Made by a program: the position numbers and the translations under genes
Notes under the pieces: model-generated
What the model saw: only the letters and a program-made list of their open reading frames with translations
What the model was told of the DNA's origin: nothing
Database searches by the model: none
Virus record (IMG/VR): IMGVR_UViG_3300033064_003572
Span: 1 to 30,252 of that record
DNA length: 30,252 nucleotides
Origin: a virus
Direction: 5' to 3' (one strand)
Shown: piece after piece, positions 2-22,761 of the stretch
How the letters are laid out: each line of letters opens with the position of its first letter
Numbering within the stretch: position 1 is the first letter of the stretch

Positions 2-1660
2 GCTGCGGTAGTCACAGGCGGTTGTAACACCATCGTTGGTTCAATTGTGGGTACTGCTGGATTGTGTAACACAGTGGTATTAGCAGCTGGTACCACTGAA
101 AGATTGCGAGTTGATTCAACTGGGTTGACAATTAATGGAGCACCACTCACAGTGGCCGGCACATTCAATGTTTGTGGTACACGAAATATTGTGAGCTGTA
201 TCAGTGGTACAGGCAGCACCGGAACTGACAACTTCTTTGCTGGTAGCCTTGCTGGTTGTGCAAACACCACTGGCTGCTTCAACACCTTCATTGGTGTTGG
301 TGCTGGTTGCAGCAATACCTTCGGCAATAACAACACTTTTATTGGTATCTATGCTGGTCGCTGCAACACCACCGGCTGCGACAACTTTTTTGCTGGTTTC
401 TGTGCTGGTCTTCTCAATACCACCGGCTGCCACAACAACTTCTTTGGTCGAGAAGCTGGCAGATGTAACACCACTGGTAGCAACAACAATTTCTTTGGTT
501 TCAATGCTGGTCTCTCTAATACCAGTGGCAGCCTCAACTTCTTTGCTGGTCGCTGTGCTGGTCGCTGCAATACCGCTGGCTGTTACAACACCTTCATTGG
601 GTTCCGTGCTGGACACAACAACACCACCGGCAATGACAACACCTTCATTGGTCGTGGTACTGGTGGCAGCAATATCTCCGGCAGCTTCAACACGTTCATT
701 GGTCATTGTGCTGGTCAAGCCAATACTGTTGGCTGCCACAACACGTTCATTGGTCAGTGTGCTGGTTTCTGTACCACCAGCTTTAGCTTCAATAACAACT
801 TCTTTGGTCAGTGTGCTGGTTTCCGCAACAGCGGTGGCAGCAACAACAACTTCTTTGGTGTCTGTGCTGGTGGCTGCAACACCACTGGAAACGATAACAA
901 CTTCTTTGGTTTATATGCTGGTCGCAACAACTCCACTGGCTGCCACAACAACTTCATTGGAAGCTATGCTGGTCGCAACAACACCACCGGCATCAGCAAC
1001 ACGTTCATTGGTCAGTGTGCTGGTTTCTGCAACACCACTGGCAAACACAACAACTACTTTGGTGCCTGTGCTGGTTTGTTCAACACCACTGGCTGCTACA
1101 ACATGTTCTTTGGTTGCAATGCCGGTCGTGCTAACACCACTGGCATCGTCAACTTCTTTGCTGGTCGTTATGCCGGCGCCTGCAACACCACTGGCAGCAA
1201 CAATTTGTTCTTTGGATGTAGTTCCGGGGTAGGCACAGCAGGACTTGCAAACATTACTACAGAGTCAAATAGAATCATCATGGGCAATGATGCTCATACC
1301 TGTGCTCAGATTCAGATTGCCTTTACTGTGGTATCCGATGAACGTGACAAGTGCATATTTGGTGCTGTTCCACACGGTCGTGGATTCTTGCAACAAATCA
1401 ATCCGGTTAAATTTGCATTCAAAAATCGAAACACTGGCTGTTTGTCTGACGCAGTTGGCAAATATCGTTATGGATTTAAAGCACAGGAAATGCTGGCTGC
1501 TGAAGGTGACAAACCAGTCATAACCAGTGCTGACAATCCGGATAAATTACAACTAACCAGCGATTATCTAGTACCAGTTTTGGTAAATGCCATCAAAGAA
1601 CTCGGTGCAGAATTGGATGCACTGAAAGAAAGAGTAGCATTGCTAGAAATTAAATCTTGA
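2..1660 (+). CDS. Tail fibre protein with 17-residue repeats and C-terminal S74 chaperone domain (5' partial)
   Basis: The reading frame is open at the left window edge, so the true start lies upstream; the GTG at 47 is only the first start-like codon. After a short beta-rich lead-in come twenty tandem 17-residue units of the form NTTGxxNxFFGxxAGxx (212-1234), the kind of repeat seen in YadA-like trimeric adhesins and phage fibres. The last ~110 residues match the intramolecular chaperone of endosialidase family (peptidase S74): a SDERDK motif carrying the expected self-cleavage serine, the LQQINPVKFAFK segment, YGFKAQE, and a C-terminal coiled coil (ELGAELDALKERVALLE). Known role of the family: the chaperone drives trimerisation of the fibre and then cuts itself off. 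By inference this is a receptor-binding fibre or adhesin. The repeats are unusually rich in cysteine (about 26). A consensus sigma70 promoter begins at its stop codon. Confidence 0.85.
   Translation, partial: AAVVTGGCNTIVGSIVGTAGLCNTVVLAAGTTERLRVDSTGLTINGAPLTVAGTFNVCGTRNIVSCISGTGSTGTDNFFAGSLAGCANTTGCFNTFIGVGAGCSNTFGNNNTFIGIYAGRCNTTGCDNFFAGFCAGLLNTTGCHNNFFGREAGRCNTTGSNNNFFGFNAGLSNTSGSLNFFAGRCAGRCNTAGCYNTFIGFRAGHNNTTGNDNTFIGRGTGGSNISGSFNTFIGHCAGQANTVGCHNTFIGQCAGFCTTSFSFNNNFFGQCAGFRNSGGSNNNFFGVCAGGCNTTGNDNNFFGLYAGRNNSTGCHNNFIGSYAGRNNTTGISNTFIGQCAGFCNTTGKHNNYFGACAGLFNTTGCYNMFFGCNAGRANTTGIVNFFAGRYAGACNTTGSNNLFFGCSSGVGTAGLANITTESNRIIMGNDAHTCAQIQIAFTVVSDERDKCIFGAVPHGRGFLQQINPVKFAFKNRNTGCLSDAVGKYRYGFKAQEMLAAEGDKPVITSADNPDKLQLTSDYLVPVLVNAIKELGAELDALKERVALLEIKS
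212..1234 (+). repeat. Twenty tandem 51-nt (17-aa) coding repeats in the fibre gene
   Basis: Units follow NTTGxxNxFFGxxAGxx with a strict 51-nt period. One unit (773-826) has an extra residue and a diverged start (TTSFSF). Cysteines recur at unit positions 5, 13 and 17. The regular spacing suggests a repeated beta fold, one turn or strand pair per unit. Codon-level divergence between units shows this is an old coding repeat array, not a CRISPR or recent tandem duplication. The low-complexity composition creates long spurious ORFs in other frames. Confidence 0.9.
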
Positions 1661-1708: not shown

Positions 1709-2353
1709 ATGAAAAAAATATTAATTGCTACTCCGTGTCTTGACCAAAAGGTCGACGCTTACTTTGTACATAGCCTATGTGAATCTATCAAGCTGGGCAT
1801 CAAACACAACCTGGACATACGTTGTGTGTTTCTAGCAAACGAAAGCATTTTGCCCATGGCCAGAAATGAACTTTTTGCACTAGCATATAAAGAAAATTAC
1901 GACACAATGGTGTTTATTGATGACGACGAGAGCTGGGATGAAACTGCACTGATTGAAATCATACAATCTGAAAAAGATGTAGTTGCTTTACCAGTTGTTA
2001 ACAAAGGTGATAAAGATATCACTTTTAATGTTTGGTTAACCAAAGACACTAAAAAAGATGAATCTGACGGATACATAAAGATCAACAAATGCGGCACAGG
2101 TTTTTTAAAACTCTCAAGAAAAGTAATTGAGGATCTGTGGAACTCAAACACAGAGCTGGTTTTTAGAAATAAAAAAATAAAAAACATCTGCGAATATACA
2201 CAGGTCAACGGTGATTTTGTTGGTGAGGACATTACGCTTACTAGCAAAATCAAAGATCTTGGATACGATATCTGGCTGAACCCAAATCATACTGTGTCGC
2301 ATATAGGTAATAAAATGTATCGAGGCGACTTCAAGCTCAAGAACAATTTATGA
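1709..2353 (+). CDS. Glycosyltransferase, GT-A fold (GT2/Anp1-like)
   Basis: A 214-residue protein opening with a beta strand and sugar-nucleotide loop (KKILIATPCLDQ) and carrying the acidic FIDDDESWD motif at residues 69-77. This is the DxD metal/nucleotide-sugar site of GT-A glycosyltransferases. A second conserved-looking segment (NKCGTGFLKLSRKV) resembles the acceptor-side region of phage and bacterial GT2-like enzymes. Donor and acceptor cannot be read from sequence. It is the first gene after the consensus promoter and overlaps the next gene by 4 nt (ATGA), so the two are translationally coupled. No strong Shine-Dalgarno precedes the ATG (only GGAAAC). It probably transfers a sugar to a cell-surface or virion glycan. 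Confidence 0.75.
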   Translation: MKKILIATPCLDQKVDAYFVHSLCESIKLGIKHNLDIRCVFLANESILPMARNELFALAYKENYDTMVFIDDDESWDETALIEIIQSEKDVVALPVVNKGDKDITFNVWLTKDTKKDESDGYIKINKCGTGFLKLSRKVIEDLWNSNTELVFRNKKIKNICEYTQVNGDFVGEDITLTSKIKDLGYDIWLNPNHTVSHIGNKMYRGDFKLKNNL

Positions 2354-3699
2354 TTGACATCATCATTCCCACAATGTGGATGGCAAAAACTACCACGGAT
2401 GCAATACAAAAATATTGCAAAAATCCAAAAGTTAACAAAATCATCTTGGTGGACAATAATCGCAAGATGCGTCCCTCAGAATTTTCTAAAATCATATCCA
2501 ATCCCAAAGTTGAATATGTGTGTTACGGTAAGAACATATATGTTAATCCAGCCTGGAATGAAGGTTACTTTAGAAGCACCTCAGAAATTATTGCAATCAT
2601 CAACGATGACATCGTGGTTGAGGACGATATATTTGATCTAGTGTTAGATCACAATTTAAAATCTGGAGACTTGGTTGGAGTCAATCTCCGCGGATACCAA
2701 GACAATTACAAAATTGATGACCACATAGAAACCAAAGAAGAGATTGTCAAGTTGAACTATGATCGAACATCGCCCATTGGAGGACAGTTATGGGCGTTTG
2801 GTATATGTATGTTCATGCACAGAAGTACATACAAAATTATTCCTAGTTTGTATCAAATTTGGTACGGTGATGATTATCTTGCACAGAATGCAAAAAACGT
2901 GTACGGAATCAACAGCAATCGTATAAAGGGCAACATCTCAGAGACTCTTAAAAGATTTAACAATCCCAACGATGATGTTTCTAAAAGAATAGAATTGGAT
3001 TCAAAAAACTTTTTGAAGTTTAGTCATTTTTACAATGAAAAAAAGTGGGATCTGCCCAAAAATATGATTGAAAAGTATGAGAGTCAACGTAAATCTACTA
3101 AACACAACAAACAATATGTATTTGAAGTTGATCACCAACAAAAAACCACAACAAAACCCAACCAAGATGTATTTGAAGCTGAATATCAACGTGCAAAAAA
3201 AACATCAAGCGATATCAATCAAAACTTGCCTGTACTTTATGAATTGGCCAAAGAGTGTGGAACCATAGTTGAGATGGGAGTCAGAACTGGTGTAAGCACT
3301 CGTGCTTTTCTAAACACAGATGCTTCACTGATATCAATTGATATTCAAAAGAATGCAACAGTTGAAAAACTTTTTGCATTGGCCGATGCTGGTGGAAAAT
3401 CCTGCCAATACTGTATTGGGGATACGTTGAAGATTGAAATCGCAGAAACAGATCTACTGTTTATTGATACGCTACATACATATGAACAATTAACACAAGA
3501 GTTAAAACTGCATGGAAACAAAGCAAAAAAGTATTTGATTTTCCATGATACACACACATTTGGAACGGTGGGCGAGATTGGCATTGATAAAAGAGGGCTC
3601 ATGCCTGCTATTATTGAATTTGTAATTGCCAACCCGCATTGGGGATTTTATATCCATAAGACAAATAACAATGGTTTAACCGTTCTAAAACGTTCGTAA
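2350..3699 (+). CDS. Fusion: GT-A glycosyltransferase + SAM-dependent methyltransferase
   Basis: Residues 1 to ~230 look like a GT2-type glycosyltransferase: a start MIDIIIPTMW, VDNNR at 34-38, and an NDD metal motif at 85-87. After a linker with a loose internal duplication (VFEVDHQQK... and VFEAEYQRAK...), residues ~290-449 look like a class I methyltransferase of the Methyltransf_24/CmcI-like type: motif I IVEMGVRTGVSTRAF near residue 305, then LLFIDTLHTYEQ and a FHDTHTFG segment. The likely job is sugar transfer plus methylation of the same glycan. It overlaps the preceding gene by 4 nt. Substrates are unknown; the domain calls are from motifs only. Confidence 0.7.
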   Translation: MIDIIIPTMWMAKTTTDAIQKYCKNPKVNKIILVDNNRKMRPSEFSKIISNPKVEYVCYGKNIYVNPAWNEGYFRSTSEIIAIINDDIVVEDDIFDLVLDHNLKSGDLVGVNLRGYQDNYKIDDHIETKEEIVKLNYDRTSPIGGQLWAFGICMFMHRSTYKIIPSLYQIWYGDDYLAQNAKNVYGINSNRIKGNISETLKRFNNPNDDVSKRIELDSKNFLKFSHFYNEKKWDLPKNMIEKYESQRKSTKHNKQYVFEVDHQQKTTTKPNQDVFEAEYQRAKKTSSDINQNLPVLYELAKECGTIVEMGVRTGVSTRAFLNTDASLISIDIQKNATVEKLFALADAGGKSCQYCIGDTLKIEIAETDLLFIDTLHTYEQLTQELKLHGNKAKKYLIFHDTHTFGTVGEIGIDKRGLMPAIIEFVIANPHWGFYIHKTNNNGLTVLKRS

Positions 3700-3719: not shown

Positions 3720-4616
3720 ATGAAGTATAGCATTTTTCACCTTCAAGGTGGCATTGGAAAGCACGTTGCTGCCACAGCAGTAGCAAGAGTGATCAAAAAT
3801 AATCATCCAGATAGAAAGCTCATTGTGGTATGTGCATATCCAGATATTTTCATCAACTTACCTTTTGTTGACAGAGTATTTACTCTGGGCAATACCAGTT
3901 ATTTCTATCAAGAGTTTATACAAGATAAAGATAGTATCTTGTTCCATCACGAACCGTATTACACCACCAATCACATACACAAGAGAAAAAAACTAATTGA
4001 AAATTGGTGTGATATGTATGGGTTGAAATACAGTGGCGAAAAACCAGAATTGAAGTTCAACAAGTTACAATATGATATTTCCAAAAGTTTCTGGGGCAGA
4101 AAAAAACCCATAATGTTTTTTCACACCAATGGCGGCATGATGACAAATGATGCCAAACCATATGCATGGACACGGGATATGCCCGTAGATGTTGCACAGG
4201 AACTGGTTGACCATTACAAAAAAGATTATCATATATATCAGGTTACCAAACTCAACTCACCAAAATTACAAGGCGCTGAACACATCTTTGCCACACAGCA
4301 ACAATCACTGTCCTTGATGGAGTTGTTTAGTATTTTGCTTCATAGTAAGAAACGTATTTTGATTGATTCTTGTCTACAACATGCAGCAGCAGCAATGAAT
4401 CGCAAATCTACTGTGCTATGGAATGGAACAAGCCCTAAGGTATTTGGGTACGATTTGCATGAGAATATCTGTACAGATATACCTTATGACTTTAAACTTC
4501 CCGGAAGCTACTTATTTGACTTTGATTTCAACGGCAATGAAGTAGAGTATCCTTTTTCTGACAATGTCAAACTGTTTGACATAAATAAGATTATAGAGTC
4601 AGTTGACAAACAATAA
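3720..4616 (+). CDS. GT9-like (heptosyltransferase-type) glycosyltransferase, GT-B fold
   Basis: A 298-residue protein beginning HLQGGIGKHVAATAVARV, the N-terminal glycine loop typical of GT9/ADP-heptose:LPS heptosyltransferase-like proteins. The C-terminal half has IDSCLQHAAAAMNRKSTVLW followed by GTSPKVFGY, matching the family's D-S-x-x-x-H-A-A-A donor-binding segment and the G-T-S-P turn. Family members act on the inner core of lipopolysaccharide, but here the substrate is unknown. AAGGAA lies 6 nt before the ATG, a good Shine-Dalgarno. It sits between other glycosyltransferases and a sulfotransferase, consistent with one glycan pathway. Confidence 0.7.
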   Translation: MKYSIFHLQGGIGKHVAATAVARVIKNNHPDRKLIVVCAYPDIFINLPFVDRVFTLGNTSYFYQEFIQDKDSILFHHEPYYTTNHIHKRKKLIENWCDMYGLKYSGEKPELKFNKLQYDISKSFWGRKKPIMFFHTNGGMMTNDAKPYAWTRDMPVDVAQELVDHYKKDYHIYQVTKLNSPKLQGAEHIFATQQQSLSLMELFSILLHSKKRILIDSCLQHAAAAMNRKSTVLWNGTSPKVFGYDLHENICTDIPYDFKLPGSYLFDFDFNGNEVEYPFSDNVKLFDINKIIESVDKQ

Positions 4617-4628
4617 AGTGAGAAACAC

Positions 4629-5594
4629 ATGAAAGAAATGATTAAAGAAATTATCCGCGAGGAAATGATGAAGACCATGATGAAGAAATACTACTTCATG
4701 TCCGGGTTACCCCGGTCTGGTAGCACTTTGCTTTCTGCAATTCTAAATCAAAATCCCAGAATGCACTCTGGTCCAAGTTCACCTGTGGTGGGTATCATGC
4801 TCACCCTTGAGAATGCAATTGCCAATGATGAATTATTTTTAGCTTATCCAAAACCAGAACAGGCAGGCAAAATAATTAGCAATGTGATTGAAAACTATTA
4901 CTCGGACGTGGATAAACCAGTTATCATTGATAAAAATAGATCTTGGGTGAATCGTATGCATTACATCCCAGGATACTTTGGCGTTGAACCCAAGATCCTT
5001 TGCCCAGTCAGAAGCATTGATGAAATTTTGACATCATTCATTACTATGTATCGCAGAAATCCATTCAATGGCAACGGCAAAGTAAATTTCATGGATGAGA
5101 TGTTGATCAAGAGTAACATACCACTCAATGATGAAAACAGATGTGAATTGTTAGCCAGCCCCAATGGTATTCTTGGACAAAGTTACAATGGCATTCGTCA
5201 GGCGATCATGGAAGGCAGGGGAAAACAAATTCATTTCATTGAGTATGATGATTTGATGAACAATCCCAATGAGACCATGCGCAAGATTTATGAGTTCTTG
5301 GACGAAGAATATTTTGAACATGATTTTTCAAACATAAAAAATGTCCATAAAGAGCATGATGCAGAAGTATATGGTCTTGCAGACATGCACGAAGTACGTG
5401 AAATTTTACAAAAAGTTTCTGCTAATCCATCAGAAATTTTACCAGAATCAACCATTAAAAAATGTGAGAATGCAGAATTCTGGAGAACAATGGATGAAGT
5501 GTATGATGATACACAGGAGCTAGAGTTTGATGAAACATCAACAGATGTTGATGAATCTTTAGAACAAAATGACACAAAACTAATAGGAGAATAA
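4629..5594 (+). CDS. Sulfotransferase (PAPS-dependent, Sulfotransfer_3-like)
   Basis: Residues 21-40 hold YYFMSGLPRSGSTLLSAILN, the 5'-phosphosulfate-binding loop (GLPRSGST). CPVRSIDEILTSF further on matches the 3'-phosphate-binding region, with the usual Arg and Ser. The family moves sulfate from PAPS to a hydroxyl or amine of a sugar, lipid or peptide. The N terminus is a short amphipathic lysine/glutamate helix; the Met at residue 13 (4665), preceded by GAGGAA, is an alternative start. The C-terminal 25 residues are very acidic (many D and E). By inference it sulfates the glycan made by the neighbouring glycosyltransferases. The next gene starts 2 nt after its stop. Confidence 0.8.
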   Translation: MKEMIKEIIREEMMKTMMKKYYFMSGLPRSGSTLLSAILNQNPRMHSGPSSPVVGIMLTLENAIANDELFLAYPKPEQAGKIISNVIENYYSDVDKPVIIDKNRSWVNRMHYIPGYFGVEPKILCPVRSIDEILTSFITMYRRNPFNGNGKVNFMDEMLIKSNIPLNDENRCELLASPNGILGQSYNGIRQAIMEGRGKQIHFIEYDDLMNNPNETMRKIYEFLDEEYFEHDFSNIKNVHKEHDAEVYGLADMHEVREILQKVSANPSEILPESTIKKCENAEFWRTMDEVYDDTQELEFDETSTDVDESLEQNDTKLIGE

Positions 5595-5917: not shown

Positions 5918-8545
5918 GTGACTACATCATTATCTCAACAAATCTATAAAAACGGGCTAGCCAAGCCCGTGATTGCTGCTGGCGGCAGTGTACATCCGCT
6001 GATCATTCCGGCTGATTTGTCAGGCACTGGCTTGATGAATCCTTCCATTTACGTGGACGGACAAACAATTTTGGTAAATCTACGCCATGTGAATTACACA
6101 TTATGGCATAGTGAACACAAAAAGTTTGAACACAGATACGGTCCACTGCAATATCTACATCCAGAGAACGACATTCACCTTCGCACATGGAACTACATGT
6201 GCATAATGAACCCTGATCTCACAATCAAACAAGTGACCAAAGTAGATACATCTGAGTGTGATAAAGAACCAATTTGGGAATTTGTAGGATTAGAAGATGC
6301 AAGATTGTTACGCTGGGATCACAAATTATGGCTGACTGGAGTACGTAGAGATACTACCACTCACGGTGAGGGGCGTATGGAACTGTCAGAGATCAATATG
6401 TTTCTGGATCGAGTAACAGAAGATAGCCGCAAGCGCATCCCTGCACCAGGAGATAACACTAGCTATTGCGAGAAAAATTGGATGCCGGTGCTGGATCAAC
6501 CGTTTACCTATGTCAAGTGGACTAATCCCACAGAAGTAGTAAAATACGATATTGACACTGGACAAACACATGTTATATTTGCTGACTCTAATCCTCGCAT
6601 ACCCGGTGTTCCAGACTTTCGTGGCGGCAGTCAAGTTATTCCCTACGGTGACAACTACATAGCCCTAGTGCATGAAACCAACTTGTTCAACAGTCCTGCT
6701 GGTAAAAAAGATGCCACATATAGACATAGGTTTGTGATGTGGGATAGCAGTTGGAAACTGTTGGCCTATACTGATGCATTTAGTTTTATGAATGCTGACA
6801 TTGAATTTTGTTGTGGTGCAGCTTGGTATGACGATCATTTGTTGTTGACTTTTGGATTCCAGGACAATTGTGCATTTGTCTTGAAGATGCCAAAAACATG
6901 TGTGGACGAATTTATCCAACAAGCAAACTATACCAATTTAGTTGTGCCAACTATAACTCACAATGGCACAACACACAAGTTTGATTGGGGGAGACTGACC
7001 AACAACCAACAGTTCCATAACACTGTTACCAATGAAATATTTGTAGACAACGCTTATCAGCGATTTGGTGAAGTTGTCGCCGGCGATGTTGTAGTAGACA
7101 TAGGTGCTAGTGCAGGACCGTTTACCTGGAGTATTGCATCTAAAAAGCCCAGCCGTGTGATCTGTCTTGAACCACATAAAGATTTATATCCTACCCTGGT
7201 AAAAAATGTCAGTAACACAGGCATATCTGTTGTTACCATAAACAAAGCAATAGGGCATTCAGATGGGCAAAACTATAGCTGCGGCCTATACAATGAGAAC
7301 AAAGTTGAACACAGTGACGGCACAGATGGAATTGTATTAGACACCATCAAATTCAGCACATTGATAGATGAACAAAAAATCACGCATATTGATTTTCTAA
7401 AGATGGATTGCGAAGGTGGGGAATATGATGTTCTCAACAATGAAAATTTTGACTGGATCATGAACAATGTGCGTAAGATTGCCATGGAAGTGCATCTTAC
7501 CACTCCTGCACTCAAAGAAAAATTTTGCAACTTTAGAGATACTTATTTGAAAAAATTCACAGACTTCCAGGTGCTTAGTCTTGATTATGTGGATATCAAA
7601 TGGGGATTATGGGACGACTGGTTTATTAAAAATTACGGCGCAATTATGATTTATATCAATAACCCAGTTGCGGGCCCAGTTAAACAAAAGTGGCAACACT
7701 ATCCAGCACCCACACTTGAAATAACTACAATTATTCCAGAAAAAGGCTGTGTGGTTGATTGTGTATTTTGTCCACAACGCACACTGGAGGAAGTTTACAA
7801 AGGTACTAGAATCCTAACTTTAGATGCATTCAAGACCATGATTGATAAAGTGCCCACAGATGTAAGGATCACGTTTGCTGGATTTACCGAACCTTGGATG
7901 AACAAATACTGCACTGACATGGTGGTATACGCACACGAACAAGGACATCCTGTGAGTATTTTTACCACTGGAGTTGGGGTGAGCGTGGAAGATATGGAAG
8001 CAATTGTAGATATACCATTTGCTGGCAATCCCAATGGCGGTTTTGTATTGCACTTGCCAGATGCTGAAATGCTAGCAAGACATCCTATCACTCCGGGATA
8101 TCTCAAAACACTAGAGTGGATTCGAGATAATCAACACAGAATACAAAACTTCTCTGTAATGAGCATGGGCAAAGAACTGCACCCCAGCATTCGACACATA
8201 TTTGATTGGGCACCCAGTTACGATATGTGGAGCAGAGCTGGCAATCTCATTAGAGAAAGTGTGGCCAAACCGCAATTGATTACCCTGCGCGATCGCTGGA
8301 ATGCTATCACACACACCGGACCTAAGACTTGTGGATGTGTTGAAGGACTGTATCATAATGTGCTGTTGCCCAATGGCGATGTGAGTCTATGCTGTATGGA
8401 TTACGGACTAGAACATATCATTGGCAACTTGAACACACAATCATACGAAGATGTTATACCACAAGATCAGACCTGTTACGACTTGTGTAACTTTTGTGAA
8501 AACGCTACAGATCCCAAAGAAAAAATTATAACCTTCCATCGGTAA
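5918..8545 (+). CDS. Three-domain fusion: GH130-like beta-propeller + FkbM methyltransferase + radical SAM/SPASM
   Basis: GTG start; an in-frame stop lies just upstream (5882-5884) and the first internal ATG would cut into a conserved-looking region. Residues 1 to ~370 look like a five-bladed propeller of the GH130 glycosidase/phosphorylase type (VGLEDARLLRW, RGGSQVIPYGDNYIALVHET, IEFCCGAAWYDDHLLLTFG). Residues ~380-585 are an FkbM-type methyltransferase: VVDIGASAGPFTW at about 391, FLKMDCEGGEYDVL at about 493, then MEVHL. Residues ~600-875 are a radical SAM domain with the 4Fe-4S triad C611-x3-C615-x2-C618, followed by a SPASM-like Cys set (C805, C807, C825, C826, C853, C857, C860) around LPNGDVSLCC. 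Likely roles are glycan or peptide modification using two SAM chemistries. The order and combination of domains are unusual. No frameshift is visible. The gene after it starts 1 nt past its stop. Confidence 0.8.
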   Translation: MTTSLSQQIYKNGLAKPVIAAGGSVHPLIIPADLSGTGLMNPSIYVDGQTILVNLRHVNYTLWHSEHKKFEHRYGPLQYLHPENDIHLRTWNYMCIMNPDLTIKQVTKVDTSECDKEPIWEFVGLEDARLLRWDHKLWLTGVRRDTTTHGEGRMELSEINMFLDRVTEDSRKRIPAPGDNTSYCEKNWMPVLDQPFTYVKWTNPTEVVKYDIDTGQTHVIFADSNPRIPGVPDFRGGSQVIPYGDNYIALVHETNLFNSPAGKKDATYRHRFVMWDSSWKLLAYTDAFSFMNADIEFCCGAAWYDDHLLLTFGFQDNCAFVLKMPKTCVDEFIQQANYTNLVVPTITHNGTTHKFDWGRLTNNQQFHNTVTNEIFVDNAYQRFGEVVAGDVVVDIGASAGPFTWSIASKKPSRVICLEPHKDLYPTLVKNVSNTGISVVTINKAIGHSDGQNYSCGLYNENKVEHSDGTDGIVLDTIKFSTLIDEQKITHIDFLKMDCEGGEYDVLNNENFDWIMNNVRKIAMEVHLTTPALKEKFCNFRDTYLKKFTDFQVLSLDYVDIKWGLWDDWFIKNYGAIMIYINNPVAGPVKQKWQHYPAPTLEITTIIPEKGCVVDCVFCPQRTLEEVYKGTRILTLDAFKTMIDKVPTDVRITFAGFTEPWMNKYCTDMVVYAHEQGHPVSIFTTGVGVSVEDMEAIVDIPFAGNPNGGFVLHLPDAEMLARHPITPGYLKTLEWIRDNQHRIQNFSVMSMGKELHPSIRHIFDWAPSYDMWSRAGNLIRESVAKPQLITLRDRWNAITHTGPKTCGCVEGLYHNVLLPNGDVSLCCMDYGLEHIIGNLNTQSYEDVIPQDQTCYDLCNFCENATDPKEKIITFHR

Positions 8546-8546
8546 T

Positions 8547-10457
8547 ATGAAAAATTTAGCTAACTTTATTGAAAACTCAGAAGATCCTGTAATCAACTTT
8601 GAGTTGGGGAAAGAATACGAAAGCATAGGCCAGACTGGCGCAGCTATCAGTTTTTATCTTCGCACAGCAGAACGCAGTTCAACCGACTTGCAACAATACA
8701 CAGCATTAATACGATGCTGTATCTGTTTGGAACAACAAAAAACTAGAGATGATACAGAAAAAGGCCTTTTGCTAAAAGCCATAGCATTGATACCAACTAG
8801 ACCTGAGGCATATTTCTTGCTGAGTCGTGTGCATGAACGTCGCACTGAATGGCAAGAAAGTTATAGTATGGCTGTGTTAGGCCTGGAACTGGCTGATTTC
8901 AGTACTGACTCTGTGAGTGCAGAAAATTATCCTGGATATTATGGATTGTTATTCCAGAAGGGAATGACCAGTTGGTGGGTAGGACTAACTGAGCAAAGTC
9001 GACAGATCATGCTGTTCCTTAAAGACTACTACAAGATGTTGCCAGTGTACGAAAATGCGGTAAACAACAATCTTAAAAATTGTGGGTTGCCAAAGATTCC
9101 GTTGCAAGAGAATCCCAAATGGAACACTGCCCCGGACACAGTGCCATTGTTTACTCACACTTATTATGAGTCAAATATGGTCAACAATATTCGATTGTGT
9201 TTTGATGGCATCGACGATATCAAGAAAAACTTCAGTCAAAGTTATCAGGACTTGTTTGTGTTGGCAGCAAACAAAGGCAAACGTAAAGGACAATATTTAG
9301 AAATTGGTAGTGCTGACCCTTTTTACGGCAACAACACAGCTTTGTTGGAAACAATGTTTGACTGGACTGGGCTGAGCATTGAATGCAATCAGGCCAAAGT
9401 CAAAGACTTTGAGCACAGCCGCAAAAACCCTGTGATATGTACAGATGCAACCACAGTGGACTATGCTGCAATTCTTGCTAGCAAAGGGTTCACTCGAGAT
9501 ATTGATTACTTGCAAGTTGATTGCGACCCACCAGAAGTTTCGTTTGGGATCTTAAAGAGTATACCATTTGATCAATACAGATTTGCTGTGATAACATTTG
9601 AGCATGATTATTACTGTAATCACAACGTAAGAGATCAAAGTCGAGAATTTCTCAAAAGCCACGGTTATGAACTCATGGTCAGCGATGTTGCTTATAATGA
9701 AGTCCACAGCTATGAAGATTGGTGGGTTCATCCTGAGCTAGTGGATGCAGCCACAAGAAATAGTTTAAGAGCAGTTGGCAACCACATAAAGTTTGCAACA
9801 GACTACATGTTCCCTCCACGTTTGCCAACCGCAGCAGTCTCAATTGTCACTAAATCAAATATTGCTCGCACTGCTTCCACGTTGATCAATCAGCAACCCA
9901 TGCCCGGTATATGGATAGTTGATAATTTTTATCAGAATCCCGACGAGATACGCAAGTTTGCATTGGCACAAGCATATGATCAAGGCGGATTTGATAAACC
10001 TTACATAGGTGATCGTACCAAACAACAATTCTTGTTTCCTGGACTTCGAGAAGAATTTGAATATATTATGAACCGCAAGATTGTGAACTGGGAGAGTCAT
10101 GCCATGAACGGTCGATTCCAAGTGTGCAAGGAAGGTGAGCCACTGGTGTATCACTGTGATGAACAAGCCTGGGCAGGCATGTTATATTTAACTCCAGGTG
10201 CACCGTATCACTCAGGCACATCCACTCATGCGCTAAAAGGCACAGACATAAGACACGTGGCTCATCCAGAGATTATGAAATGCTTTAGGCCTGGTAGTCG
10301 CAATCTAGATCGAACCATCTTTGAACCAGTGGACTCACTTGGTAATGTGTACAACCGCTTGGTTATATTCAATGCTGGATACATTCATTCAGCCACAGAT
10401 TATTTTGGATTCAACAACGAAAACTGTCGACTATGGCAAATGTTCTTTTTTGATTGA
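8547..10457 (+). CDS. Three-domain fusion: helical repeats + FkbM-like methyltransferase + 2OG-Fe(II) oxygenase-like (DUF6445-like)
   Basis: Residues 1-190 form TPR-like helical pairs (FELGKEYESIGQTGAAISFY and PTRPEAYFLLSRVHERRTEW). Residues ~228-400 resemble an FkbM methyltransferase: SQSYQDLFVL, then YLEIGSADPFYGNNTALLE at about 251 and YLQVDCDPPE. Residues ~450-636 resemble a 2-oxoglutarate/Fe(II) dioxygenase of the DUF6445 type: IWIVDNFYQNPDEIRKFA, then an iron site H536-x-D538, distal H614 (NAGYIHSATDYFG) and a possible 2OG-binding R628. A TPR scaffold joined to a methylase and a hydroxylase suggests modification of a glycan or peptide. It lacks a clear Shine-Dalgarno and is probably coupled to the gene before it. 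Its stop abuts the stop of the convergent Nudix gene with no space between. Confidence 0.7.
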   Translation: MKNLANFIENSEDPVINFELGKEYESIGQTGAAISFYLRTAERSSTDLQQYTALIRCCICLEQQKTRDDTEKGLLLKAIALIPTRPEAYFLLSRVHERRTEWQESYSMAVLGLELADFSTDSVSAENYPGYYGLLFQKGMTSWWVGLTEQSRQIMLFLKDYYKMLPVYENAVNNNLKNCGLPKIPLQENPKWNTAPDTVPLFTHTYYESNMVNNIRLCFDGIDDIKKNFSQSYQDLFVLAANKGKRKGQYLEIGSADPFYGNNTALLETMFDWTGLSIECNQAKVKDFEHSRKNPVICTDATTVDYAAILASKGFTRDIDYLQVDCDPPEVSFGILKSIPFDQYRFAVITFEHDYYCNHNVRDQSREFLKSHGYELMVSDVAYNEVHSYEDWWVHPELVDAATRNSLRAVGNHIKFATDYMFPPRLPTAAVSIVTKSNIARTASTLINQQPMPGIWIVDNFYQNPDEIRKFALAQAYDQGGFDKPYIGDRTKQQFLFPGLREEFEYIMNRKIVNWESHAMNGRFQVCKEGEPLVYHCDEQAWAGMLYLTPGAPYHSGTSTHALKGTDIRHVAHPEIMKCFRPGSRNLDRTIFEPVDSLGNVYNRLVIFNAGYIHSATDYFGFNNENCRLWQMFFFD

Positions 10458-10892: not shown

Positions 10893-12280
10893 GTGCCGCC
10901 GGTGTATAATCCATCTATGCTTTTGACCCACTTGGTGCCATTCCAATAGAATTGAATGCCGGTGGTCAAGTTGATTACATATTGTGCATCTGTAGTATCT
11001 CTACTGTTGAATGCAACAACCCATCGTGTGCCGTCGTACTCAATGATATCATTGGCATGTGCAATTAGTGATTGGCCAGAAATTCCCTCCCACGCCACAG
11101 GATTACTTGGATTGTCTGCATTGCCTGTACTGTCGTTTAGCAAGTATCTCTGACCAGTTGCAGCAGCAGGCAAGCCATCCCCAGGTGCAGCAGTTAGAGG
11201 ATTGATAACAGCATCCACAGGCGACAATGTGTTTTGTGGCGCAGTATCGGGATCAATATTGTAAATTAACAATCGATTATCAGCTGGATTCACAGCAATG
11301 GTGCCAATGATACTGGAATCAGGATCCCAGGGATTGTCTAGAGTGATATAGCTGATGCCCGGGCGTAGCACACCATACGCTCCAATCACTGTGGGCCAAG
11401 TAATCTGTGGACTTTCTACTAGAGGAAATGTAAACGGTGCCAAGCTGATACGATCTGGATTCACTGGTTGCGGAGGCTGTAACACTTGAAGTTGCCCATC
11501 CAGCAGCAACACTTGATAACCCCACGGCGTGACTTTGACTCGAGTACCTAGCAGCAAATCATTGTCAGTCAGTGCGTTAACTGCATCACCTTGTGCATCA
11601 AAGATACTGGCAATCACACGTTCCACCACACCCAACTTCTTGACTTTGGCTGGGCTACTGATCCAGATGGGCATGCTGAATGTCATGGTCATGATGTCAA
11701 TGGGATTTTCGGTGCCCACAGGAATAGATCTTGAACTCCACTTTACACTGTCAAGATTGCACACAGTGAGACTGGTCCAGTCAATGTAGTTATCTGTGGC
11801 TTGTATTTCCAAAGCAGGATTAAACAAGGTAGCAATTTGTTCAAACAACTGCATCTTTTGGTTGGTATTGCTGGTCCAGATGTCCAAATTTATAGTTAGC
11901 TTGTAAGGCACAGGCATGAGCCTTTCAATTTGAAATGCATTGCCTTGAGTGGTTTCGTAGCTTTCTGTACCTGCATCCCATGTGCGTTGACGCACAAACA
12001 TCTTGTTCACATGATACGGCTCTTGCATGCGTTCTCTATCATATGCCAAATCAGTAATGTAAAATGTCATCAGCGGAGTGGCATTCAATGAGTTGGCAGA
12101 GTTTTGATTTAATATGGTTTGTGCTTGTCTACTGGCATCGCCATAGCGAATGGGCACACGAATCAAGTCGGATGTACCTTGTTCATTACGGCCATATTCA
12201 ACTTCAAACAAGCTGAACATGCGTGTGAATTGCAGTAGATAGCGACGGATTTGTTCGTCGTAAAAGAAAAGTTGACTCAT
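10874..12280 (-). CDS. 15: T4 gp15-like proximal tail sheath stabiliser / tail terminator
   Basis: The N-terminal ~240 residues follow T4 gp15: LFFYDEQIRRYLLQFTRMFS, IRVPIRYGD, PVPYKLTINLDIWTSNTNQK and FSMPIWISSPAKVKKLG. gp15 caps the top of the contracted-tail sheath and tube and joins tail to neck. At 468 residues it is well over T4 gp15 (272). The extra C-terminal half has a beta-rich decoration region with two W-ending units (IIEYDGTRWVV and IQFYWNGTKWVK) like those in gp14 and the sheath. It overlaps the bilin reductase stop by 4 nt (ATGA). Confidence 0.8.
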   Translation of the reverse strand: MSQLFFYDEQIRRYLLQFTRMFSLFEVEYGRNEQGTSDLIRVPIRYGDASRQAQTILNQNSANSLNATPLMTFYITDLAYDRERMQEPYHVNKMFVRQRTWDAGTESYETTQGNAFQIERLMPVPYKLTINLDIWTSNTNQKMQLFEQIATLFNPALEIQATDNYIDWTSLTVCNLDSVKWSSRSIPVGTENPIDIMTMTFSMPIWISSPAKVKKLGVVERVIASIFDAQGDAVNALTDNDLLLGTRVKVTPWGYQVLLLDGQLQVLQPPQPVNPDRISLAPFTFPLVESPQITWPTVIGAYGVLRPGISYITLDNPWDPDSSIIGTIAVNPADNRLLIYNIDPDTAPQNTLSPVDAVINPLTAAPGDGLPAAATGQRYLLNDSTGNADNPSNPVAWEGISGQSLIAHANDIIEYDGTRWVVAFNSRDTTDAQYVINLTTGIQFYWNGTKWVKSIDGLYTGGTWNLVL

Positions 12281-12957
12281 AGTCTGTGCTCTGGATACAA
12301 TACTTCGTCAATAAACTTTTTAATTACATTTTCTTCTACACCCATGCTGATCATGCTGCGAGCAACATGTGGATTTAATTTGTTGTTGGCATTGTATCGA
12401 CTTTGAATTGGCCAGTAATCATGTTCAGACTGTGCAGTTTTGCCCACGTTGTCTAAATAGTAATTCAAGTTTGCTTCTGCCAGTTGGCACAAGTTTTCTA
12501 GTTCGGTTTCGTCGCTCACATTGCCAGCAGCCACAATGTTTGAACTGAAGATCTCAGATGCCCACTGTGGTAAGACTCTGGGTTTGTTCCAGGTCACATC
12601 TTTCACAGTTTCGGCAAAGTGTTTCATCATGAAGTGGTTGGGATCACCACCGTCGCTGAAGTCATGAAATGCTCCTGTGATTTTGTTTGGGCCGCACACA
12701 GCATCAAATCCCCAAATTGGACTGGGATCATTGTAATGCGGAAACACTGTGCAATGCAACACAAGAATCTTGTGACTAGCAGTTTTATCCACAATTTCAA
12801 CGTGTGCTCTGCGATATGCTGGACTGGTGTACAGTCGATTGTACCAGTCGTAGGATTCGGCCACATCCACAATAGGTGTGCCTGTTTGCTTAAAACGTGA
12901 TTCAAAGAACTCTGCTACTTTAAACACTCGTTGCCAAAGATTAGTGGTCATATTCAT
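12277..12957 (-). CDS. Ferredoxin-dependent bilin reductase (PcyA/PebS/PcyX family)
   Basis: 226 residues, the usual length for the family. The core AHVEIVD...VLHCTVFPHYNDPSPIWGFD carries E54, H68 and D85. By spacing these match Glu76, His88 and Asp105, the catalytic residues of PcyA (H-to-D distance is 17 in both; E-to-H is 2 longer here). GPNKITGAFHDFSD follows. The enzyme reduces biliverdin IXa, the product of heme oxygenase, with electrons from ferredoxin to give a phycobilin. Which bilin is made is not shown by sequence. The position of the second catalytic Asp of PebS seems to be Asn here (KLNPHVARSM). The gene overlaps the heme oxygenase by 17 nt. A phage bilin reductase (PcyX) next to a heme oxygenase has been described from uncultured marine viruses, and this arrangement fits it. 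Confidence 0.85.
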   Translation of the reverse strand: MNMTTNLWQRVFKVAEFFESRFKQTGTPIVDVAESYDWYNRLYTSPAYRRAHVEIVDKTASHKILVLHCTVFPHYNDPSPIWGFDAVCGPNKITGAFHDFSDGGDPNHFMMKHFAETVKDVTWNKPRVLPQWASEIFSSNIVAAGNVSDETELENLCQLAEANLNYYLDNVGKTAQSEHDYWPIQSRYNANNKLNPHVARSMISMGVEENVIKKFIDEVLYPEHRL

Positions 12958-13459
12958 TTAGTATTTGGATTGCCCAATCAAAGGCAATGTTGGCTTCATC
13001 CGCCATGTTGTCAGATAGTTTGTTTCTCATGGCTGCAATCAACACAGGAGTATCTAAAAAATCCAAACTGCTGTGTGGCCCATCCACAAGTTTTTTAATC
13101 ATCTGTCCACCAAACAAATCCCCCATGTGCCATGTGTACAAATGTGCCATGATTTGTGTGGGATTGGTCAGTGTTTGTATGTAGTTATGATATTCTAACA
13201 CCGCAGGTTTAAATTCACGAGCACCACCATCCATTTTTTTATAATCTTGTGCAAGTAATTGTGACCTGCGCATGGACTCTATATCACTCATCAGGCCGTG
13301 TTTGGCTGCTGCTGATTCAATTGTGCTGTAGAACAATGATTTTTGATAGATAAAGTCTACCCAATGGTCACGTGGCAGAGTCTTGGCAAACACTGCTTTC
13401 ATGAACTGTGTGGTCTCTGCCTGGCGATGTTTATCTGCTGTAAGGTCTTTAAGGCTCAT
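12941..13459 (-). CDS. ho1: Heme oxygenase (biliverdin-producing)
   Basis: 172 residues, shorter than typical cyanobacterial HO1 (~240). It opens with LKDLTADKHRQAE, in which H11 matches the proximal heme ligand of the family's T-x-x-x-H-x-x-A-E motif. TWHMGDLFGGQMIKK (109-123) is the distal helix G-D-L-x-G-G over the heme. The reaction is heme + O2 + reductant to biliverdin IXa, CO and Fe2+. It starts 2 nt after the gp14 stop and overlaps the bilin reductase start. The tight packing between two structural genes means it shares their late transcript. No good Shine-Dalgarno is visible, so it is probably translated by coupling. Confidence 0.9.
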   Translation of the reverse strand: MSLKDLTADKHRQAETTQFMKAVFAKTLPRDHWVDFIYQKSLFYSTIESAAAKHGLMSDIESMRRSQLLAQDYKKMDGGAREFKPAVLEYHNYIQTLTNPTQIMAHLYTWHMGDLFGGQMIKKLVDGPHSSLDFLDTPVLIAAMRNKLSDNMADEANIAFDWAIQILNEYDH

Positions 13460-19311: not shown

Positions 19312-22300
19312 ATGGCTCTAGTATCCCCAGGCGTAGAAGTATCAGTAATTGATGAAAGTCAATATCTTCCAGCTGCCACCAACTCAGTACCGTATTTTCT
19401 TATAGCCACAGCACAGAACAAGGCGTCTGGCAGTGGTGTTGGTGTAGCAGCAGGCACACTCGAAGTCAATGCCAACCGTGTTTATCAAATTACCAGTCAG
19501 AGAGATCTTGCAGCTACATTTGGTAATCCGTTTTTCTATAAAACTACCATTGGTACTCCTATCAATGGATATGAACTAAATGAATATGGATTGTTGGCAG
19601 CGTACAGCGCATTGGGTGTTACCAATCGTGCGTTTGTTCAACGTGTGAATATTGACCTCACTCAGCTCACAGCCACATTGGTGCGGCCCACAGGTGAACC
19701 CGACAATGGTTCTTACTGGTTGAATACAGCAACCAGTCAATGGGGTATTTTTGAGTGGAATCAAGTCACAGGAGCATTCTCCAACCAGATTCCTTCAGTT
19801 ATCACTGACACTAGTGAATTGGTTAATGGTGTGCCGTTGCAAGATTATGGCACCATCAATGGTTATGCTATTGTTGCTACCAATGTTCAAAATCCACTGT
19901 ACTATAAAAATGGTGCAGTGGCCTCTGTTGGCAATGGTAACTCTGTTACATTGACCAACTTGTATAACAATTGGGTGCTAGTAGGCAGCGACGAATGGAA
20001 ATTGAGCCATCCTACAATTCAAGGTGCCAATGCTGTGACAACAGCACTCACATCCGGCAATACTATTGTGATCAACGGTACAAGCGTGGCAGTGCCTGGA
20101 ACTACTATACAAGGACTCAGCGGAGCTATCAATACTGCTGCAATTACCGGTGTATACTCAGCTGTGCTCAGCAACAAACTTTGCTTGTTTGCCGATAGTA
20201 CAGCCACAGCTGACGGATCAACTGGTGACGATGGTCTTATTGTTATAGATTCAACTGGATCAACACCGGCATTGTTGACTACCCTGGGTATTACAGCAAA
20301 TAAAGAATACTATGCTCCGGCACTGCAACAAAGTCCCAACTACACATTTCCACGTTGGTTGTCTACAGATGACACACCACGTCCTACAGGTAGTGTGTGG
20401 AACAAGATTACTCCGCAAAATCTGGGCACAAATATAGTAGTGCAAAAATACAGCACAGCATTGGGTAGCTGGGTAACACAAGCTGCTCCGGTGTACGAAA
20501 ATGACTGGTATGCCAATGCTGCATTGGATGCCACTGGCGGTGGAAAAAATATTGCTGCTGGCACAACCTATACACAATACAACGTGAATCCTGCTGTTAG
20601 TACCGTTGGTGCGTATCCATACAACAACACCTACACATTGCAGGTGTTTGAACGAGCCAGTCAAGGTGCTACAATTGTTACAGGTAGTGTGGCTGTTCCT
20701 ACGTTCGTGAGCGGTAATACATTTACTGTGACCACAAGCATTCCAAACTCTAACAATTTGACTTCTACTGTGACAGTGACCATTACGGGTACTGATGCAG
20801 CAGCATTTAATACTGCTGTGAGTTCAGCAGGTTTTTCAAATGTTGTGGCGTCGGTTAGTTCGGCTGGTGCAATTGTACTGACACAAACTCAGGGTGGTGT
20901 TATTCTGTTGCAAAACGTTACAGGAACTCCATTGGCAGCAGCTGGATTTACCACCAGCACCACTGGTTGCCGCAACATTGTTAATGATGATCAAACTGCT
21001 TATTTACAACTCAGCAACTGGGTTCCACTAAGCTACACAGCCAGTGCTGTGGCGCCAGACCAGGATCCTGCCAACGGGACCTACTGGTACTTTACCAGTC
21101 CTAGTCAAGTTGACATCATGATCAATGATGGATCTCAATGGGTGGGATATCAAAACGATACCAACGACACACGTGGTTTCAATCTAAGCAATACCAATCC
21201 AACTGGTCCTATTATTTCGGCCACAGCACCTACCACTCAAACAGATGGCACTGTGTTGGTATACGGAGACTTATGGGTAGATACCAGCAATCTTGAACTA
21301 TATCCATTGTTGAATCGTTGGCAAGCAGTGGATGGTGTAAATCAATGGGTGACTCTGGACAACACTGATCAACAAACCTCAAATGGTATTTTGTTTGAAG
21401 ACGCTCGTTGGAGCACAACAGGAACAGTAAATCCTATCACCGACAATCTGCCTTCAATCACCAGCTTGTTGACCAGCAACTACTTGGATGTAGATGCACC
21501 TGATCCTGCACTGTATCCCGATGGTATGCTGCTGTGGAACACACGCCGATCTGGCTACAATGTCAAACTTTTCCAAGTTGACTATTTTAATGCCAGCAGC
21601 TTCAGCTATGACTCATGGTCTAGTTCTACAACCTATGCAGTAGGCGATCAAGTATTGTATAACGCTGTGTTGTATGTGGCCATTCAAGCCGGCACTAATC
21701 AGAATCCAGAGACACAAACTTCATTCTGGGATGTGTTGGAAACCAATTCATGGGTAACTGCATCTGGCAACAGAGCTGACGGTTCACCGTATATGGGACG
21801 TTTTGCTCAACGTTCATTGATTGTGGCTGCATTGAAATCAGGTATTGATACCAGTATCACAGCACGTGAAGAACAAGCACAATTCAATTTGGTGGCGTGT
21901 ACTGCATACCCTGAATTGATTCCTAACATGGTAGCACTCAGCAATGAGCGCAACAATACCTTATTTGTAGTGGGTGATACGCCAATGCGATTGGAACCAA
22001 CTGGAACTGATATTGCTGCCTGGGCCACAAACAACAGTGGTAATGGAATATTTGCAGAAGATGGATTAACAACCAGTACTCCATATGCCGCAGTGTTCTA
22101 TCCAAGTTGCCAAACTACTGATCTTGGTGGCAGTGCTGTGGTTACTGCGGCTAGTCACATGATGGTACGTACTATTATCCGCAGTGATTCGGTCAGCTAT
22201 CCATGGTTGGCACCAGCTGGAACACGTCGTGGTGTGATTGACAATGCTGCTAGAATTGGTTATATCAATAGTATCACTGGTGAGTTTGTTACAATTGGTA

Positions 22301-22761
22301 ATAATCAAGGTCTGCGTGACGTTGAGTACCTGAACAAAATCAACCCAATCACATTCTTACCAGGTGTGGGTATTACCAACTTTGGTAACAAGACCATTTA
22401 CGGTGTTACCAGTGCATTGGATCGTATCAATGTAGCACGACTGATTGCGTTCATGCGTGGTCGTTTAGACGAAATTGGTAAACAATTCTTGTTTGAACCC
22501 AACGATCAAATCACTCGTAATGAAATTGCCAATGCAATAAATGGATTGTGTATTGATCTTGTGGCCAAGCGTGGTATCTATGACTTCTTGGTAATTTGTG
22601 ATGATTCCAACAACACACCTGCTAGAATTGATGCCAACGAGTTGTGGGTAGACATTGCTATCGAACCTGTAAAGGCTGTGGAATTTATCTATATTCCATT
22701 GCGTATCAAGGCAACTGGTGCCATTGCTGACTCACAGAGTACAACACAAGCTTCTATCTAA
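19312..22761 (+). CDS. 18: Contractile tail sheath protein, T4 gp18-like, with large decoration insert
   Basis: The N terminus (MALVSPGVEVSVIDESQY) and the C-terminal ~320 residues (PAGTRRGVIDNAARIGY, INPITFLPGVGITNFGNKT, LIAFMRGRLDEIGKQFLFEP, VEFIYIPLRIKATG) are canonical gp18. At 1149 residues it is far longer than T4 gp18 (659). Residues ~130-830 are a beta-rich, Thr/Asn/Ser-rich insert with repeating W-containing units (GDLWVDTSNLELYPLLNRW, GTYWYFTSP, PDGMLLWNT). At 766-808 is a CBM5/12-like module (YDSWSSSTTYAVGDQVLY...Y...FWDV). The insert would sit on the outer surface of the sheath. Strong Shine-Dalgarno and late promoter precede it; a strong terminator follows. Confidence 0.9.
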   Translation: MALVSPGVEVSVIDESQYLPAATNSVPYFLIATAQNKASGSGVGVAAGTLEVNANRVYQITSQRDLAATFGNPFFYKTTIGTPINGYELNEYGLLAAYSALGVTNRAFVQRVNIDLTQLTATLVRPTGEPDNGSYWLNTATSQWGIFEWNQVTGAFSNQIPSVITDTSELVNGVPLQDYGTINGYAIVATNVQNPLYYKNGAVASVGNGNSVTLTNLYNNWVLVGSDEWKLSHPTIQGANAVTTALTSGNTIVINGTSVAVPGTTIQGLSGAINTAAITGVYSAVLSNKLCLFADSTATADGSTGDDGLIVIDSTGSTPALLTTLGITANKEYYAPALQQSPNYTFPRWLSTDDTPRPTGSVWNKITPQNLGTNIVVQKYSTALGSWVTQAAPVYENDWYANAALDATGGGKNIAAGTTYTQYNVNPAVSTVGAYPYNNTYTLQVFERASQGATIVTGSVAVPTFVSGNTFTVTTSIPNSNNLTSTVTVTITGTDAAAFNTAVSSAGFSNVVASVSSAGAIVLTQTQGGVILLQNVTGTPLAAAGFTTSTTGCRNIVNDDQTAYLQLSNWVPLSYTASAVAPDQDPANGTYWYFTSPSQVDIMINDGSQWVGYQNDTNDTRGFNLSNTNPTGPIISATAPTTQTDGTVLVYGDLWVDTSNLELYPLLNRWQAVDGVNQWVTLDNTDQQTSNGILFEDARWSTTGTVNPITDNLPSITSLLTSNYLDVDAPDPALYPDGMLLWNTRRSGYNVKLFQVDYFNASSFSYDSWSSSTTYAVGDQVLYNAVLYVAIQAGTNQNPETQTSFWDVLETNSWVTASGNRADGSPYMGRFAQRSLIVAALKSGIDTSITAREEQAQFNLVACTAYPELIPNMVALSNERNNTLFVVGDTPMRLEPTGTDIAAWATNNSGNGIFAEDGLTTSTPYAAVFYPSCQTTDLGGSAVVTAASHMMVRTIIRSDSVSYPWLAPAGTRRGVIDNAARIGYINSITGEFVTIGNNQGLRDVEYLNKINPITFLPGVGITNFGNKTIYGVTSALDRINVARLIAFMRGRLDEIGKQFLFEPNDQITRNEIANAINGLCIDLVAKRGIYDFLVICDDSNNTPARIDANELWVDIAIEPVKAVEFIYIPLRIKATGAIADSQSTTQASI

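Follow-up and report, generated by a model that had tools for sequence, protein, structure and literature searches.

A phage polypeptide with a GH130-like propeller, an FkbM methyltransferase and a radical SAM/SPASM domain: a probable enzyme for sugar assembly and tailoring

Radical SAM genes are common in aquatic phages, and their roles have been guessed; the authors of a Baltic Sea study themselves describe the role of the viral genes assigned to ahbD as speculative (PMC9301287). According to the available parts of two reports, phage glycosyltransferases and radical SAM genes are already known from the tail-fibre region of T4-like phages (PMC7029224, PMC5332604). Among the radical SAM enzymes, BtrN oxidises an aminocyclitol and holds one auxiliary cluster of four cysteines (PMC9012708). 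In the literature on cyanophages that we searched, nothing joined radical SAM with FkbM, or FkbM with a glycosyltransferase.

Here we analysed a stretch of 30,252 nucleotides of an IMG/VR virus record (IMGVR_UViG_3300033064_003572, positions 1 to 30,252), which is called the window below. Judging by its genes for a tail-sheath stabiliser, heme oxygenase and bilin reductase, the window is a fragment of a T4-like cyanophage. The bilin reductase gene (ferredoxin-dependent) and the heme oxygenase gene are adjacent on the minus strand at 12277-13459 and represent a cyanophage bilin pathway. A megablast search with the first 25 kb found no match among phage records, and an Rfam search gave no match.

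We found that three genuine enzyme domains lie within a single chain of 875 aa, whose ORF starts with GTG (Table 1). The initial annotation had placed a propeller, an FkbM methylase and a radical SAM/SPASM domain in one polypeptide, and all three assignments hold when family models and structure prediction are used. In addition, the cysteines it had listed (C611-x3-C615-x2-C618 plus seven at the C-terminal end) are exact, and its "double-SAM modification machine" is borne out as anatomy, with two SAM-using domains whose motifs are both intact. We consider it probable that the protein assembles and tailors a glycan within a single polypeptide: a sugar would be added, O-methylated and oxidised by radical chemistry, with the virion as the probable site; the reactions, their order and the target are what we infer.

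Table 1. Positions of the features in the window
Feature	Position	Strand	Basis
Propeller–FkbM methyltransferase–radical SAM/twitch-SPASM fusion, 875 aa	5918..8545	+	ORF call, Pfam, TIGRFAM-type models, same ORF elsewhere
Five-bladed propeller, aa 13-338, GH130/GT108 fold, beta-mannosyltransferase/phosphorylase-like	5954..6931	+	family matches, predicted structure, invariant residues
Less constrained linker, aa 336-365	6923..7012	+	w 0.11-0.45 vs four closest relatives
FkbM SAM-dependent methyltransferase, aa 370-582	7025..7663	+	PF05050, TIGR01444, motifs
Radical SAM + C-terminal twitch/SPASM, BtrN-like fold, aa 595-866	7700..8515	+	Pfam, alignment, structural matches
CxxxCxxC radical SAM cluster motif, C611/C615/C618, invariant	7748..7771	+	alignment
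Auxiliary Fe-S cluster cysteines C805, C807, C825, C826, C853, C857, C860	8330..8497	+	alignment
Next gene, 636 aa: TPR–methyltransferase-like middle–Fe(II)/2-oxoglutarate oxygenase (DUF6445-like), conserved partner	8547..10457	+	Pfam, alignment
C-terminal part of repeat-rich tail fibre/spike, candidate substrate	2..1660	+	
GT2-like gene, same strand block	1709..2353	+	weak, E 0.014
GT2 + Methyltransf_24 protein	2350..3699	+	Pfam
GT9 (heptosyltransferase)-like protein	3720..4616	+	weak, E 0.003
Sulfotransferase	4629..5594	+	PF13469 E 4e-14

The same fusion, which the initial annotation had suggested seeking in other phages, was found as a single ORF in 47 fetched loci (42 complete and 5 cut by a contig end); the window and L149, which is a copy of it, are among the 47, and in some cases several loci are overlapping pieces of a single contig. 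Because the intact ORF recurs in these loci, the fusion is neither an assembly error nor a product of chance. Other arrangements were also observed. There were 28 loci with a split form, in which the propeller gene is followed by an X-FkbM-radical SAM gene, 6 loci with three adjacent genes in the order propeller, FkbM, radical SAM, and 6 loci with a propeller-radical SAM fusion lacking FkbM. The initial annotation had counted homologs split into unrelated genes against itself. The homologs are indeed often split, yet they stay adjacent and in the same order, which supports a functional link. Furthermore, the radical SAM domain almost never occurred without an upstream propeller (the exceptions are L017/L109, L110 and loci at contig ends), and the propeller was frequently present without a radical SAM domain.

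The divergence of the domains was correlated (r = 0.77-0.85, 42-52 dereplicated loci; propeller against radical SAM, r = 0.83, 52 loci), and shared phage ancestry may contribute to this and explain part of it. Each of the three domains is under strongly purifying selection, which is weaker in the linker: against the four closest relatives, w was 0.036-0.139 in the domains and higher in the linker (0.11-0.45). The split form was also seen in the complete genome record of Synechococcus phage DSL-LC02, where it lies beside collagen-like and tail-fibre genes; in this record (OR032571.1) the propeller gene occupies 47489-48463 and the FkbM-radical SAM gene 48456-50609. A 405-kb viral contig carries the full three-domain fusion (L018, 6388-9051) downstream of several collagen-like proteins in a row, and very large phages thus have the module too. 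Among the viral structures that resemble the model are proteins of giant viruses whose annotations name sugar transferases or polysaccharide enzymes, a match that is not assigned to one domain.

Structure prediction, as proposed in the initial annotation, recovered the propeller with five blades of GH130 type, and on this ground it belongs to the GH130/GT108 fold. The propeller modelled alone from 42 phage sequences had a pTM of 0.89, and the full chain had a pTM of 0.47. Its top match in the PDB was the GH130 mannoside phosphorylase 5ay9 (Z 24.2 over 277 residues, rmsd 3.1), and the mannoside synthase Uhgb_MS (Z 20.9) and the Leishmania GT108 mannosyltransferases/phosphorylases MPT-2 and MPT-4 (Z 17.8 and 17.4) were also matched. 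Overall, the Z scores were 24.2-20.6 for GH130 and 16.9-17.8 for GT108, and further five-bladed families, GH43 among them, reached at most 17.4. At the level of sequence, the window propeller had no match to the GH130 model (PF04041), the curated cut-off not being reached; GH130 was weakly matched by 18 of the 43 family members (best E 1e-4), and none of these 43 phage proteins matched BMT (PF12141). Searches of PDB sequences with the propeller, both as a single sequence and as a profile, gave nothing relevant. The hhalign comparison with seven GH130 proteins was not significant, and only the last 100 residues aligned, weakly.

In the propeller alignment, N41, R56, E126-D127-R129, K186, K200, R235, H252, Y268 and D316 are invariant. 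E126-D127-R129 forms an ED-x-R motif with a putative catalytic Asp, and this motif is kept in bacterial relatives. Matched by motif, its counterpart in BT3780 is E141-D142 (PMC4599007). By motif and spacing, the invariant residues of the propeller would correspond to those that bind substrate and catalyse in BT3780; the profile comparison is weak. In addition, the invariant basic residues would fit an enzyme that binds phosphate or a nucleotide sugar, not a hydrolase (PMC4599007), and a possible link of K186, K200, R235 and H252 to the three phosphate-binding basic residues of GH130 is drawn from spacing and the weak hhalign match.

The bacterial relatives of the propeller, found by profile search, mostly keep NPS, R-x-x-NYT, G-x-ED-x-R, KNWMP, RGG, HE, Y-x-HR and the terminal Asp. 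The propeller there forms part of a longer protein, either together with GT2, TPR and DXD transferase domains that bind sugar or together with FkbM, and one of these relatives (L186) matched the Pfam BMT beta-mannosyltransferase family with E 1.7e-7. In three such proteins (L186, 4119-6305; L188, 1-3495; L189, 1-3525), a propeller of this family is joined to GT2 and TPR; one has the BMT match and two also have Gly_transf_sug, and all three are candidate beta-mannosyltransferases.

Since the GH130-type active-site residues are invariant and the bacterial relatives match beta-mannosyltransferases, the propeller is more likely to carry out catalytic sugar transfer (or phosphorolysis) than to be a mere glycan-binding module. 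Thus, of the "glycan-recognising" propeller of the initial annotation, the GH130-like fold stands and the role of mere recognition does not. Because of its fold, its invariant active-site residues and its beta-mannosyltransferase relatives, the propeller would attach a hexose to a growing glycan, most likely mannose in beta linkage with GDP-mannose or mannose-1-phosphate as donor; the fold does not by itself prove this transfer chemistry. We considered it unlikely that the propeller builds no glycan and instead binds or degrades one (as a phosphorylase), bringing the two SAM domains to host polysaccharide. The best structural matches are phosphorylases, and K186, K200, R235 and H252 could hold phosphate, given their spacing from the putative catalytic Asp. 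However, the related propellers of bacteria share a chain with GT2, with TPR and with DXD transferase domains that bind sugar, one of these relatives matches the beta-mannosyltransferase family, and an energy-harvesting phosphorylase would be of little use when fused to two SAM enzymes.

A host origin of the propeller was also considered and rejected. A search of the phylum to which L166 belongs (cyanobacteria and kin) gave matches in 3 of 292 genomes, the only strong one being on a phage-like contig that also carries a portal gene. For the phylum that includes Acidisphaera, matches came from 3 of 299 genomes, and every one was inside a large multidomain protein. A genome of the cyanobacterial phylum (L185, 1084-14868) contains a phage-like stretch with a portal gene, a propeller gene flanked by collagen genes and a GT4-like gene.

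The FkbM domain was recognised by two curated models, PF05050 (residues 394-530, E 3.5e-12, 47.2 bits, cut-off 22.7) and TIGR01444 (residues 391-526, E 5e-21, 75.7 bits, cut-off 37.7), and it contains the motifs VVDIGASAG at aa 392 and KMDCEGGE at aa 495. In some relatives (L025, L026) the domain is duplicated. Judging by its family, the FkbM domain would act next and O-methylate a hydroxyl of the sugar.

For the C-terminal third, SPASM (PF13186) matched residues 807-849 with E 5e-6 and 27.1 bits, above the cut-off of 21.5, which makes the domain a member of this family. Radical_SAM (PF04055) gave E 4e-4 in the window protein, below its cut-off, and exceeded the cut-off in relatives such as L081 and L025; the invariant CxxxCxxC and the fold place the domain in the radical SAM superfamily, with BtrN and DesII among the structural matches. 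BtrN (4m7t) was the top radical SAM structural match (Foldseek 4.5e-7; Z 17.0 over 217 residues, covering residues 589-864, with 19% identity), and DesII was the next. When the profile of this domain was searched against the PDB, BtrN (E 0.083), cytosylglucuronate decarboxylase and DesII appeared without significance; cytochrome P450 matches in the same search were judged spurious. Six of the seven C-terminal cysteines are constant or nearly so in the alignment, and C853 is variable. From the cysteine pattern, one auxiliary cluster, twitch-like as in BtrN, seems likelier than the two of SPASM proper. Considering the fold and the cysteines, a 5'-deoxyadenosyl radical would abstract hydrogen from a sugar carbon, and the auxiliary cluster would accept a second electron to give a keto-sugar or an epimer, as BtrN does with its aminocyclitol.

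The bacterial relatives of the radical SAM domain mostly have 31-38% identity. Their neighbours encode GT2 (10 of 79), FkbM (3), GDP-mannose dehydratase (2) and polysaccharide synthesis or export proteins (2). Another sugar-linked radical SAM architecture, a fusion of GT8, radical SAM/SPASM and TupA ATP-grasp, was seen in a Gastranaerophilales MAG (L192, 604-3048).

The gene at 8547-10457 is a conserved partner of the module. In its oxygenase part, all 19 aligned sequences share H536-x-D538, H614 and R628; its methyltransferase-like middle was judged by eye and matched no model. In most loci with enough sequence, relatives of this gene lie directly 3' of the propeller or of the whole module, and in some of them the oxygenase part alone is left. 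The product would add a hydroxyl or a further oxidation.

A modifier of peptides or proteins seems quite improbable to us. Here, the radical SAM/SPASM domain would alter side chains (RiPP-like or of the tail fibre) and FkbM would methylate the product. It is true that many SPASM enzymes have peptide substrates (PMC9012708), that 18 of 42 loci (raw count) have collagen-like virion proteins nearby and that an Fe(II)/2-oxoglutarate oxygenase accompanies the module. Nevertheless, the nearest solved fold, BtrN, acts on an aminocyclitol, the domain travels with a mannosyltransferase-type propeller, and no peptide-recognition domain was seen. The initial annotation had pointed to a peptide substrate, including an 88-aa neighbour. 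This is not supported, for the 88-aa ORF has no Cys and, apart from the window, was found in a single fetched locus (L048), so a conserved RiPP-type precursor peptide was not found beside the enzyme.

Among the genes upstream of the module in the relatives, matches to tail-fibre families are the most frequent (up to 17 of 61 genes per family, raw count). In the window, too, glycosyltransferase, sulfotransferase and tail-fibre genes stand upstream of the module, company that favours a role in building glycans. Since the module adjoins tail-fibre genes in many phages, we take a phage surface protein (tail fibre) as the likeliest target, with modest confidence, and the host envelope as the second. 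With the envelope as target, the same chemistry would remodel LPS or O-antigen during infection and block superinfection by competitors, a reading that we find doubtful though worth weighing. In the available part of one report, glycosyltransferases of the pelagimyophage tail-fibre region, where radical SAM cassettes also occur, are read as superinfection-blocking envelope remodelling (PMC7029224). In addition, the bacterial relatives of both outer domains belong to polysaccharide loci or proteins, and GT9-like and GT2 genes are also present in the window. However, the adjacency to tail fibres in many phages makes a virion target at least as natural, and a late change of the envelope would be of less gain to a lytic phage.

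In the tail-fibre gene of the window, a 51-bp tandem repeat occupies 250-1203 with 18.6 copies and encodes 17-aa units of the type NTFIG-x2-AG-x2-NTTG. The gene at 19312-22761 encodes a tail sheath protein of 1149 aa with Phage_sheath_1C at its C-terminal end and a weak CBM5/12 match at residues 769-804. Could this segment be a sugar-binding insert?

Returning to the tail fibre as target, we suggest only tentatively that aquatic phages glycosylate their own tail fibres, some of them collagen-like, with a beta-mannose-type sugar that would be O-methylated, radically oxidised and hydroxylated, and that this equipment would be swapped between phages like the fibres it decorates. If the virion is the target, phages would have a new route to vary their surface, which would matter for host range and for how phages compete with one another. 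Moreover, fusion and gene order now connect a large set of radical SAM domains with an FkbM methyltransferase and a beta-mannosyltransferase-like propeller, which gives a concrete proposal for their function, the making of a modified sugar. The three-domain polypeptide also offers one-pot sugar chemistry.

Compared with the known systems, three features appear to be new, since none was found described in the literature searched: a propeller of mannosyltransferase type, the constant order of the three parts, and their fusion. The FkbM domain is a clear member of its family by both curated models, with SAM and DCEGGE motifs intact; it differs in sitting between two probable sugar-enzyme domains. 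The C-terminal third shares the fold, the CxxxCxxC and the short auxiliary-cluster domain with BtrN (radical SAM 2-deoxy-scyllo-inosamine dehydrogenase). However, the match in sequence is not significant, and the window protein has seven C-terminal cysteines, whereas the auxiliary cluster of BtrN uses four. With the GH130/GT108/BMT enzymes, the propeller shares five blades, the central ED, NPS, R, invariant basic residues and the terminal Asp, and a bacterial relative matches Pfam BMT; in contrast, its identity to solved members is about 9-16%, the window protein falls below the Pfam GH130 model, and the literature searched gave no case of such a propeller joined, as here, to FkbM and radical SAM. 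Finally, the available parts of the reports on the glycosyltransferase/radical SAM cassettes of T4-like marine phages do not describe the propeller or its oxygenase partner, nor a fixed order of the domains or any fused form, but our module resembles these cassettes in its genomic place beside the tail fibre and in its gene classes (PMC7029224, PMC5332604).
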